A stretch of DNA of 64,000 nt from Pseudomonas tumuqii (GTDB lineage: Bacteria > Pseudomonadota > Gammaproteobacteria > Pseudomonadales > Pseudomonadaceae), in contig NZ_JAAOJA010000003.1 of assembly GCF_013184545.1 (NCBI RefSeq), positions 248,001-312,000 of the forward strand, written 5' to 3'. The stretch's first letter is position 1, and each line of letters begins with the position of its first letter. The position numbers were made by a program, and so were the translations under genes. Below, one piece after another: positions 24,728 through 50,730 of the stretch. The notes under the pieces were generated by a model that made no database searches, was not told the DNA's origin, and saw nothing but the letters and a program-made list of their open reading frames with translations.

Positions 24728-24753
24728 AAGGCCGGTCAATGACCGGCCTTTTT
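24728..24753 (+). terminator. Rho-independent terminator after the comEA-like gene
   Basis: Stem AAGGCCGGTC / GACCGGCCTT with an AAT loop, followed by a T run, 18 nt after the stop codon. Confidence 0.9.
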
Positions 24754-24868
24754 GCATGTTGGGGGTGACCGCCAGGCCGGTCCTGCAATACAGTTCGCGT
24801 TTTCTGGACGGCCACCGGCAGTCCTGTGCGCATCGGCAGGTGCGGATCAACGGACGGTTATCTTTTCG

Positions 24869-25996
24869 ATGAATGCGATGTCTCCCCAGGCGATCTACCA
24901 GCATGCCCTTGACCACCATGGTTTCCAGGTGGATGACGCCCAGCAGCGGGCGGTGAGGGCGCTGGAAAACTGCCATCAGGCGTTGCATCGGCCTGGAGAC
25001 AGTGCGCAGCCAGTCAGCGGGGTTTATCTCTGGGGGCCGGTAGGACGCGGCAAGACCTGGCTAATGGATCAGTTCTATCAAAGCCTGCGAGTGCCCGCGC
25101 GCCGTCAGCATTTTCATCATTTCATGCGCTGGGTGCATCGCCGCCTGTTCCAGTTGACCGGCACTCCCGATCCCTTGCGGGCCTTGGCTCGTGAGCTGAG
25201 CGCCGAGGTCAGTGTGCTGTGTTTCGACGAGTTGTTCGTCAGTGACATTGGCGATGCCATTTTGGTCGGGCGCTTGTTGCAGCTGATGTTCGAGGAGGGC
25301 GTTGTGCTGGTTGCCACATCCAACCAGGCGCCGGAACAGCTATATGCCGACGGTTTCAATCGGGAGCGCTTGCTCCCGGCGATAGTGGCCATCAACCGGT
25401 ACATGCAGGTTGTCGGTGTCGATGGCGGGCAGGATCACCGCCTGCACCCGGGCATACAGCATCAGCGCTATTGGCAGGCCGAGCCGGATCGACCCAGTGC
25501 GCTGCAGGAGGTTTTTCGCCGGTTAACGGTGGGCGCGACGCCATCTGATCGCCCCGTTGTGCTTGGGCAGCGATCCATTCGCGTGGTGCAACAGGCTGCT
25601 GCGGTGATCTGGTGCCGCTTTGCCGATCTGTGCGAACAGCCGGTCTCGGCGCTGGATTTCATTGCCCTGTGCGATCATTTCTCGGTCATAGTGCTCAGCG
25701 AGGTGCCAGCCCTGAGCGGCCAGCAGAAACCAGGCACTATCGCCCGTGGTACCGAGGATGGTATCGAGCGGGTGGCGGCCGGCGACCGCGAACTGCCCGC
25801 GCTGGCGGCGCATGACGATAGCGTGCGGCGCTTCATTGCCCTGGTGGATGAATGCTACGACCGCCGCATACCGCTCTACCTGGAAGCTCAGGTGCCACTG
25901 GAGGCGCTATATACCGAGGGTTACCTGGCTTTCCCGTTCCGTCGCACCCTGAGCCGGCTGCGGGAAATGCAGCTGCAACGGTTTTCTGCGGTTTAG
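24869..25996 (+). CDS. zapE: ZapE/AFG1-like AAA ATPase
   Basis: 375-aa P-loop ATPase of the ZapE (AFG1) family. Walker A is GPVGRGKTW, followed by FHHFMRWVHRRL, Walker B VLCFDELFVSDIGDAILVG, and the sensor region VLVATSNQAPEQLYADGFNRERLLPAI. The C terminus has the family ending YDRRIPLYLEA. E. coli ZapE acts at constricting Z-rings. Pseudomonas usually has a second, canonical zapE near rplM, so this may be a paralogue. Start: ATG 24869 or 24878; neither has a strong Shine-Dalgarno. Confidence 0.82.
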   Translation: MNAMSPQAIYQHALDHHGFQVDDAQQRAVRALENCHQALHRPGDSAQPVSGVYLWGPVGRGKTWLMDQFYQSLRVPARRQHFHHFMRWVHRRLFQLTGTPDPLRALARELSAEVSVLCFDELFVSDIGDAILVGRLLQLMFEEGVVLVATSNQAPEQLYADGFNRERLLPAIVAINRYMQVVGVDGGQDHRLHPGIQHQRYWQAEPDRPSALQEVFRRLTVGATPSDRPVVLGQRSIRVVQQAAAVIWCRFADLCEQPVSALDFIALCDHFSVIVLSEVPALSGQQKPGTIARGTEDGIERVAAGDRELPALAAHDDSVRRFIALVDECYDRRIPLYLEAQVPLEALYTEGYLAFPFRRTLSRLREMQLQRFSAV

Positions 25997-26100: not shown

Positions 26101-26280
26101 AAAACAAAAAAAGCTCCGGGATTAACCGCAGGTAATAAAAAACCCGGCTGGATGGCCGGGTTCTCGAATTTGGCTCCGCGACCAGGACTCGACAGCGCAG
26201 CTGAACGCGCTTCAGCGCGGCCCCGGAGGGTGAGCTTGGGCGAATAACCTGGGACGCAGTCCCAGGTGAGAGTCCGACAG
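26101..26280 (-). repeat. tRNA-Asn distal repeat, unit 3 (most distal)
   Basis: About 180 bp unit, read on the - strand downstream of tRNA-Asn. In order it holds a hairpin (CCTGGGAC-TGC-GTCCCAGG), a second hairpin around GCTGAA/TTCAGC, the last 22 nt of tRNA-Asn (26171-26192, including CCA), and a terminator (CCCGGC/GCCGGG plus T run, 26135-26161). It is almost identical to unit 2: I count one substitution and one or two single-base indels. Confidence 0.88.
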
Positions 26281-26460
26281 AAACAAAAAAAGCTCCGGGA
26301 TTAACCGCAGGTAATAAAAAACCCGGCTGGATGGCCGGGTTCTCGAATTTGGCTCCGCGACCAGGACTCGACAGCGCAGCTGAACGCGCTTCAGCGTGGC
26401 CCCGGAGGGGTGAGCTTGGGCGAATAACCTGGGACGCAGTCCCAGGTGAGAGTCCGACAG
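26281..26460 (-). repeat. tRNA-Asn distal repeat, unit 2
   Basis: Same structure as unit 3. The tRNA-Asn 3' segment is at 26350-26371 and the terminator hairpin at 26314-26341. The spacing from the unit 3 tRNA segment is 179 bp. Confidence 0.88.
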
Positions 26461-26607
26461 AAACAAAAAAGCCCCGGTATTAAACGAGGCTCTTGAATTT
26501 GGCTCCGCGACCAGGACTCGACAGCGCAGCTGAACGCGCTTCAGCGTGGCCCCGGAGGGGTGAGCCTTGGCGAATAACCTGGGACGCAGTCCCGGTGAGA
26601 GTCCGCA
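26461..26607 (-). repeat. tRNA-Asn distal repeat, unit 1 (closest to the tRNA), shorter variant
   Basis: About 147 bp. The tRNA-Asn 3' segment is at 26500-26521. The terminator region differs from units 2 and 3: AGCCTCG/CGGGGCT stem with a T run at 26466-26492. The spacing to the real tRNA 3' end is 148 bp, about 30 bp less than between units 2 and 3. Confidence 0.86.
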
Positions 26608-26611
26608 GGCA

Positions 26612-26639
26612 ATAAAAAACCCGGCTGGATGGCCGGGTT
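26612..26639 (-). terminator. Terminator immediately after tRNA-Asn
   Basis: On the - strand, AACCCGGC-CATCCA-GCCGGGTT followed by a T run, 9 nt beyond the tRNA CCA end. The same hairpin recurs after the tRNA 3' segment in repeat units 2 and 3. Confidence 0.85.
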
Positions 26640-26647
26640 CTCGAATT

Positions 26648-26723
26648 TGGCTCCGCGACCAGGACTCGAACCTGGGACCCAATGATTAACAGTCATTTGC
26701 TCTACCGACTGAGCTATCGCGGA
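26648..26723 (-). tRNA. tRNA-Asn (GTT)
   Basis: 76-nt cloverleaf with acceptor TCCGCGA paired to TCGCGGA and an encoded CCA. D-arm is TAGCTCAGTCGGTAGAGCA, the anticodon GTT corresponds to 26688-26690, and the T-arm is CCAGG-TTCGAGT-CCTGG. Its last 22 nt are repeated three times downstream. Confidence 0.97.
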
Positions 26724-50291: not shown

Positions 50292-50730
50292 AGGGTATTG
50301 CCCTCAATGTTGACTGTTATGTCCCTTAGACCTCGGCGACCTCGTCGCGAGGTCAGGCAGAAAGATCTGCCAGAGGAGAAAGCCGCTGCCGGCGTGGCGG
50401 TTCTACCTCGTGCCCTCGTCGTTGCAACGAAGGCCTGGGTAGATTTCTATCGAATGCTTGGGTGCCTGGGAATGATCGTTTTGTCATAAGGAAGTAACAC
50501 TTTTGCCGCTCAGGCCATAAGGCGACACGCAAGAGGTTCTGTTTCCTGGGACTATTACCCATGGCGCGGGCGTTTGCAGCGTGCGTACTGGTGTTTCGCC
50601 ACTGCGAATTAATCGCGGTTGCATGCTCTGTTTATTCCGATGAAGGGTCGCCTTGCGACGTTTTGTCACTTATTTTGGCCGTGTTGACTCGTTCACCTGC
50701 CGTTTACTGCCTTAGGCACTGGATATCCCC
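50292..50730. other. Long gap between rmf and rlmKL
   Basis: About 440 bp with no convincing gene. It contains inverted-repeat potential near 50329-50354 (GACCTC...GAGGTC) on the rmf leader side. It should hold the rmf and rlmKL promoters; I could not place them with confidence. Confidence 0.5.

Follow-up and report, generated by a model that had tools for sequence, protein, structure and literature searches.

The tRNA-Asn gene in a 64,000-nt stretch of Pseudomonas tumuqii DNA (contig NZ_JAAOJA010000003.1, positions 248,001 to 312,000; hereafter, the window) is followed by a three-unit array of tRNA-linked repeats (TLRs), probably a recombination-driven palindromic repeat that is parasitic on tRNA 3' ends. 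A chain of hairpins nested in a copy of the T-loop was found behind 16 tRNA species, mostly in the class of the window (Gammaproteobacteria), and is new here. Also new are a rule for the orientation of this hairpin core, a scarcity of wobble pairs in its stems, and tail copies that track the allele of the host tRNA, with the copied T-arm 5' half often off-allele. With one core motif, a T-loop address, and an orientation rule, scattered TLR cases would become one testable family, and the three together point to an origin at the DNA level, by insertion and conversion.

The host gene, tRNA-Asn(GTT), lies at positions 26648-26723 on the minus strand, as do all features of the array, and has the T-arm CCAGG-TTCGAGT-CCTGG. 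Its last 22 nt are repeated three times with 0 errors, at 26500-26521, 26350-26371, and 26171-26192 (each 22/22 identical to the tRNA), exactly as the preliminary description had it. Start-to-start spacings for the tRNA end and the tail copies are 148, 150, and 179 nt. Of the unit lengths given earlier (about 147, 180, and 180 bp), the first and last fit these values and the middle one does not. The 179-nt spacing is longer by ~30 nt because of a second terminator remnant. The last two array copies share 99% identity across 129 nt.

Between tails, a hairpin with a T-run comes first and is followed by a near-copy of the T-arm in inverted orientation. The 5' half of the T-arm is next, and a chain of small hairpins then runs up to the tail. 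Immediately 3' of the tRNA is terminator 1, a hairpin with a T-run at 26611-26639 that was read by eye and received no score in a consensus scan. Unit 1 continues with the inverted T-arm near-copy (26589-26604, read from the sequence), the T-arm 5' half GTCCCAGGTT (26576-26585), and the hairpin core (26521-26575), the latter two spanning 26521-26585; the first base of tail copy 1 is common to the end of the core. A terminator-like hairpin follows at 26464-26494. In unit 2, the inverted near-copy, a listed inverted repeat to the tRNA, is at 26439-26455, and the T-arm 5' half (26426-26435) and core (26371-26425) occupy 26371-26435. Behind tail copy 2 are two successive hairpin/T-run remnants (26284-26341, read from the sequence), the first resembling terminator 1 and the second being part of the other type. 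Unit 3 has its inverted near-copy, likewise a listed inverted repeat to the tRNA, at 26259-26275, with the T-arm 5' half (26246-26255) and core (26192-26245) at 26192-26255. A trailer with hairpins and T-runs (26104-26170), 3' of the last tail copy, ends the array.

The hairpin chain has the layout TTATTCG-hp-CTCACCC..GGGCC-hp-GTTC-hp, where hp is a hairpin, and is nested in the T-loop copy. Alignment of a unit with the tRNA makes the nesting apparent: the tRNA reads GTCCCAGGTT|CGAGTCC...CCA, and the unit reads GTCCCAGGTT|ATTCG...core...GT|CGAGTCC...CCA. A terminator had been proposed behind each tail. A hairpin and T-run can be read by eye at these places; the consensus scan scored a single array site, the stem at 26494-26467 behind tail copy 1. 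With two terminator-like sites in the 1-kb stretch versus a shuffle mean of 1.0, the scan alone gives no support for terminators.

Part of the array is traversed by a 156-amino-acid reading frame (26212-26682, minus strand), as would be expected if the units were a translated repeat resembling the tpr frame. Spacings of 148 and 179 nt are not multiples of three, and those in four relatives are 143, 147, 148, 149, 158, and 160 nt, so that successive units do not share a single frame. A tpr-like gene is disfavored on these grounds, and we consider it very improbable.

Distribution of the array within the genus was analyzed with two patterns. The first, which made no use of the core, specified two copies of the last 12 nt of the tRNA, 137-167 nt apart, with no mismatch. 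Matches were obtained in 24 of 296 same-genus genomes and in none with the reversed pattern, indicating that the array is not a chance arrangement. In the remaining 272 genomes, no exact pair of tail copies was present within this spacing range, which argues against an essential role, with the limit that diverged arrays would be missed by this pattern. The second pattern, TTATTCGN{0,25}CTCACCCN{2,6}GGGCC, used the core only and matched 31 of 298 same-genus genomes (control, 2). By our own reading, a called tRNA-Asn precedes a hit in 24 of the 31, four have units of the Asn type whose tRNA is truncated or masked, and three have dispersed copies only.

The aminotransferase gene that adjoins the array in the window also adjoins all 23 of the 23 loci with a called tRNA-Asn among L036-L065. 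One array locus, L006 in genome G012, is an exception, with no aminotransferase hit within its 3 kb; upstream of its tRNA-Asn, at about 1950-2400, is an open stretch that we take to resemble an IS110-type transposase. A second tRNA-Asn gene belongs to an Asn-Pro-Lys cluster and had no tail copy within 230 nt at the 15 loci inspected, one of them partly masked. A unit at the main locus in L009 appears decayed. Given the aminotransferase-linked loci, the tail-less Asn-Pro-Lys locus, and the decayed unit, the array appears to be an old resident of a single locus that has been lost or has decayed in places. A relaxed core pattern gave 13 hits in the genome of the window, three of them in the array, versus three for the backwards control; in 12 other genomes, the control had hits in eight. 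Dispersed intergenic repeats with palindromic arms also carry the core motif (L036, L042, L068-L074, and other Pseudomonas loci), and some genomes have several dispersed core copies, such as G286 with five pattern hits.

The core pattern finds TLRs without knowledge of the tRNA, and its range extends beyond the genus. It matched 30 of 369 genomes sampled across the class and 30 of 398 sampled across the phylum, with no control matches in either sample and some genomes common to both. Nineteen of the 30 phylum matches belong to the class of the window, and 11 belong to one outside family (f226), in which some hits lie behind tRNA-Ser or tRNA-Gln. At least one core hit, that in genome G978, looks like chance. 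At least 118 core stretches were obtained by scanning named genomes. Serratia, Yersinia, Klebsiella, Erwinia, Marinobacter, Alcanivorax, Salinisphaera, and Stutzerimonas are represented among the 80 listed, and the few listed from other groups may reflect chance or contamination. A Klebsiella record of chromosome size, a hit from the plasmid collection, has the same layout behind tRNA-Phe. Searches of plasmids and phages returned mostly plain tRNA-Asn genes, judged by appearance among the 20 matches listed for each.

These searches provided at least 265 distinct core contexts, a non-random sample of loci, for analysis. A tRNA gene is located no more than 600 nt 5' of the core in 130 of the 265, and a tail copy (≤5 errors in 20 nt) stands beside the core in 121 of these tRNA-linked hits. 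For the other 135, no tRNA was called within 600 nt upstream. They include loci where the tRNA is cut off or masked, two with a 5S end within 900 nt, and others that are intergenic repeats with palindromic arms. This half of the sample stands against a tRNA-parasitic repeat as the explanation. The preliminary description had named wide occurrence of the unit away from tRNA genes as evidence against its interpretation; such occurrence was found for the core and not for the whole unit.

Site-specific integration at tRNA genes leaves copies of the tRNA tail, so that the array might be the relic of integrative elements, its tail copies being successive attachment sites of islands that integrate at tRNA 3' ends. 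The tail copies themselves and a unit break that falls in the T-loop are what such a history would leave. A mere 126-157 nt separates successive tail copies in the window, however, with no integrase or island in between. The same core is also found in distant bacteria at a total of 16 tRNA species, as well as 3' of 5S rRNA and at sites that have no tRNA gene nearby. We therefore regard an integrative origin as quite unlikely.

Orientation of the core depends on the tRNA species. The core is on the tRNA strand behind tRNA-Asn (46/46), tRNA-Phe (14/14), and tRNA-Met (1/1) and on the opposite strand behind the 13 other species (69/69). In all cases with the opposite orientation, T-loop residue 59 is A (GTTCGAA, or GTTCAAA for Gly), and in all cases with the same orientation it is not A (GTTCGAG, GTTCGAT, or GTTCAAG). 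Core orientation thus agrees with residue 59 in 130 of 130 hits (69/69 with A and 61/61 with another base). A perfect split of three versus 13 species would arise by chance once in 560, a figure to be read with the reservation that the species are not independent. The rule may partly reflect common descent because Asn and Phe account for 60 of the 61 hits with the same orientation.

Two sets of units that were collected without the core agree with the rule. Sixteen Escherichia coli units found by their tail copies alone (4 Tyr, 3 Arg, 3 Ser, and 6 Lys) all have the opposite orientation and A59; one of them, the first tyrT unit, was already among the 265. This set came from 17 scanned regions, one of which (L331) has no tRNA, and fuzzy matches on the tRNA strand in long spans that include neighboring tRNA genes were left out of the count. 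Each of 33 distinct tail-bounded Asn units, most from loci already in the first set, has the core on the tRNA strand, and one also fuzzy-matches the other strand. The simplest reading of these sequence patterns is that insertion occurred at TT^CG, with preference for the strand containing ATTCG and, failing that, GTTCG.

The Asn arrays occur with two T-stem alleles, whose 5'/3' strands are CCAGG/CCTGG and CCTGG/CCAGG, and this allowed each part of a unit to be compared with its own tRNA. The tail could be parsed in 38 of the 46 Asn units (eight unparsed). It is exactly the 3' strand of its own tRNA in 13 of 13 units under CCAGG/CCTGG and in 23 of 25 under CCTGG/CCAGG; the remaining two tails carry one further substitution, and the other T-stem allele was seen in 0 of 38. 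Among readable units, the inverted T-arm copy carries its own allele in five of seven under the first allele (CCAGG), with the other allele in two; under the second (CCTGG), the figure is 24 of 25, with G in one. For the T-arm 5' half, all 11 readable units under the first allele have the expected A. The 30 readable units under the second have A (19) or C (11), and none has the T of the tRNA. From these counts, the tRNA serves as the source of the tail or the tail is kept the same as the tRNA, and the upstream part is free to drift. Tail tracking would fit gene conversion or, alternatively, processing-related selection acting on the tail. The failure of the copied T-arm 5' half to track the tRNA allele speaks against a tRNA-parasitic repeat as the explanation.

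The stems of the core differ from those of the tRNA. In the distinct variable hairpins from 94 distinct cores, there were 790 Watson-Crick, 6 G-T, 14 A-C, and 19 other pairs (829 in total), a count that excludes 47 distinct hairpins without a parsed stem and the CCC/GGG hairpin fixed by the pattern. The tRNA acceptor and T stems of the same loci had 1254 Watson-Crick, 47 G-T, 5 A-C, and 2 other pairs. Core stems thus have few wobbles and no clear strand preference, unlike tRNA stems. In a structured RNA, G-U pairs would be expected on the strand that is transcribed, as seen for the tRNAs. An apparent strand bias in an earlier count that kept repeated hairpins (11 A-C versus 1 G-T) shrank to 14 versus 6 with distinct hairpins and was discarded. 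Predicted RNA folds of the three window units were unremarkable (z-scores of -1.42, -1.81, and -1.27). Because wobbles are few and without clear strand preference and the RNA folds are ordinary, the pairing looks like a property of DNA, that is, of palindrome upkeep.

These results bear on the possibility that the array encodes functional small RNAs, with units released from the tRNA-Asn transcript that bind Hfq or Rsm/CsrA-type proteins or pair with targets, in the manner of RrA, RrB, and RrF. RrB, which has the same core motif, is described as a processed product of read-through transcription to which Hfq and CsrA bind (PMC8144298), and RtT RNAs of Actinobacillus are reported as Northern-positive (PMC4986893). 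Covariation support is reported for part of the rtT structure (PMC8250186) and, together with the Hfq and CsrA binding of RrB, speaks for an RNA role in some members. By analogy, a regulatory RNA role in some members of the family is plausible. In the window, a single promoter-like site was found directly upstream of tRNA-Asn (26763-26736; shuffle mean, 0.2), as a transcribed array would have it. Against a functional small RNA array are the ordinary folds of single units, a core strand that varies with the tRNA, stems without an RNA-type wobble bias, and the many same-genus genomes (272/296) in which the tail-copy pair was not matched. On balance, we consider such a function unlikely as the main explanation of the array.

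A palindromic repeat parasitic on tRNA 3' ends is the more probable reading. Each unit is a palindromic DNA cassette made of an inverted T-arm copy, a T-arm whose loop is split by the hairpin chain, the tRNA 3' end, and a terminator. In the proposed scheme, the ancestral core may have entered a T-loop copy, part of a T-arm palindrome, at the TT^CG step, with its orientation set by the strand offering (A)TTCG. Growth of the array would occur by unequal recombination between tail copies, and tails would be kept equal to the tRNA by conversion with the tRNA gene or by selection for processing. Read-through from the tRNA would presumably transcribe the units, with cleavage at the copied tRNA end, in line with what has been proposed for RrB. 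Among the options listed in the preliminary description, a selfish, tRNA-parasitic repeat is the one that the evidence presented here favors, and we infer that the array is mainly selfish.

A broader and more tentative reading is that the core is a mobile module that inserts at TT^CG where a DNA palindrome has its loop, the loop sequence determining which strand is used. A single hairpin-targeting family would then include TLRs, rtT, the rrnB T1-T2 spacer, and some of the dispersed palindromic repeats. Targets of such a module may include tRNA T-arms, the 3' arm of 5S rRNA, and ERIC- or BIME-like repeats, and the module would carry or acquire a copy of the host RNA 3' end, so that the gene stays intact. 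We regard this as possible, with a probability well below that of the tRNA-parasitic repeat.

The preliminary description stated that an equivalent of the array was not known for tRNA-Asn in Pseudomonas. That statement requires qualification. A class of such repeats, known since 1978, is described in E. coli K-12, where Stenum et al. (2021, PMC8144298) count 22 TLRs at ten loci, rtT/rttR and the rrnB T1-T2 small RNA being among them. The 3' end of these repeats matches the upstream tRNA or rRNA exactly over 18-19 bp, and Egan & Landy 1978 and Rudd 1999 are cited there. RtT-family RNAs adjoining tRNA-Asn and tRNA-Lys are reported in Actinobacillus (PMC4986893). The texts returned by our literature search gave no account of Pseudomonas TLRs, nor of T-loop nesting or the orientation rule. 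TLRs are described as having no known function, a starvation phenotype of the tyrT repeats having been retracted (PMC8144298). Elements resembling rtT are reported inside BIMEs (PMC2965389), and rttR is listed as REP-containing (PMC12306157).

The window array resembles the E. coli K-12 TLRs in its position 3' of a tRNA (in E. coli, a tRNA or 5S gene), its copies of the host 3' end, a common short core motif, and several units per locus (one to five in E. coli and three behind tRNA-Asn in the window). All 16 E. coli K-12 units found by tails alone carry the short core motif of the window with at most two substitutions. The window units differ in being located at tRNA-Asn, in having the core reversed relative to the tRNA, and in each being followed by a hairpin with a T-run. 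The parallel drawn earlier with E. coli tyrT/rtT is sound and extends further than was apparent there, in that both are tRNA-linked repeats with a common core motif. Similarity to rtT/rttR of tyrT-tyrV (Rfam RF00391) extends to the layout, with tail copies, 178-nt units, and a core with similar linkers, but not to the orientation of the core relative to the tRNA, which is inverted in the window array. The RF00391 covariance model, at its gathering score, had no match in the genome of the window, the window array, or L004/L008, which rules out RtT as the formal family of the array.

RrA, RrB, and RrF provide a further comparison. Their genes, rrA, rrB, and rrF, are located between T1 and T2 of rRNA operons and are reported to be transcribed by read-through into RNAs of ~173 and ~115 nt. 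Hfq and CsrA are interaction partners of these RNAs, and the copied 3' end has been suggested as a site of RNase E cleavage (PMC8144298). The T1-T2 spacer of rrnB (L272, E. coli K-12 4171450-4172250) has the core motif after position 307, one substitution and one insertion away from our pattern. Before T2, the same spacer repeats 13 nt of the 5S 3' end without error. These elements differ from the window array in having 5S rRNA as host and in their reported binding of Hfq and CsrA (PMC8144298). The rrnB T1-T2 double terminator is a heavily used vector tool, and the core motif is thus present in its spacer.

ERIC, BIME, and other palindromic repeats with internal hairpins are a last group for comparison, since the core occurs in dispersed intergenic repeats. 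An ERIC-like arm, defined as an 18-nt motif (≤4 errors, no chance control), was found within 200 nt of the core at ten of the 50 loci L273-L322 (L274, L279, L293, L298, L299, L305, L307, L309, L315, and L319), which suggests that the core forms part of some longer ERIC repeats. Such an arm was found at only seven of the 135 strict-pattern hits without a tRNA. The link with ERIC is weak. We know of no tRNA tail copies in ERIC- or BIME-type repeats.

The longest run of units that we noticed, at L303 (G1034:C5:241200-244200), has five pattern hits with 167-bp spacing behind tRNA-Tyr. In the window, positions 24752-25996 hold a gene, named by eye, that we take to encode a ZapE-like ATPase; it lies between the array and a comEA-like gene. 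Among the compared loci L001-L065, the ZapE-like gene was seen beyond the genome of the window only in L061 (G243), and the comEA-like gene is nearer to the array in several others. The window also has a match to the rmf RNA family (RF01755, 102.8 bits) at 50309-50454 on the minus strand.
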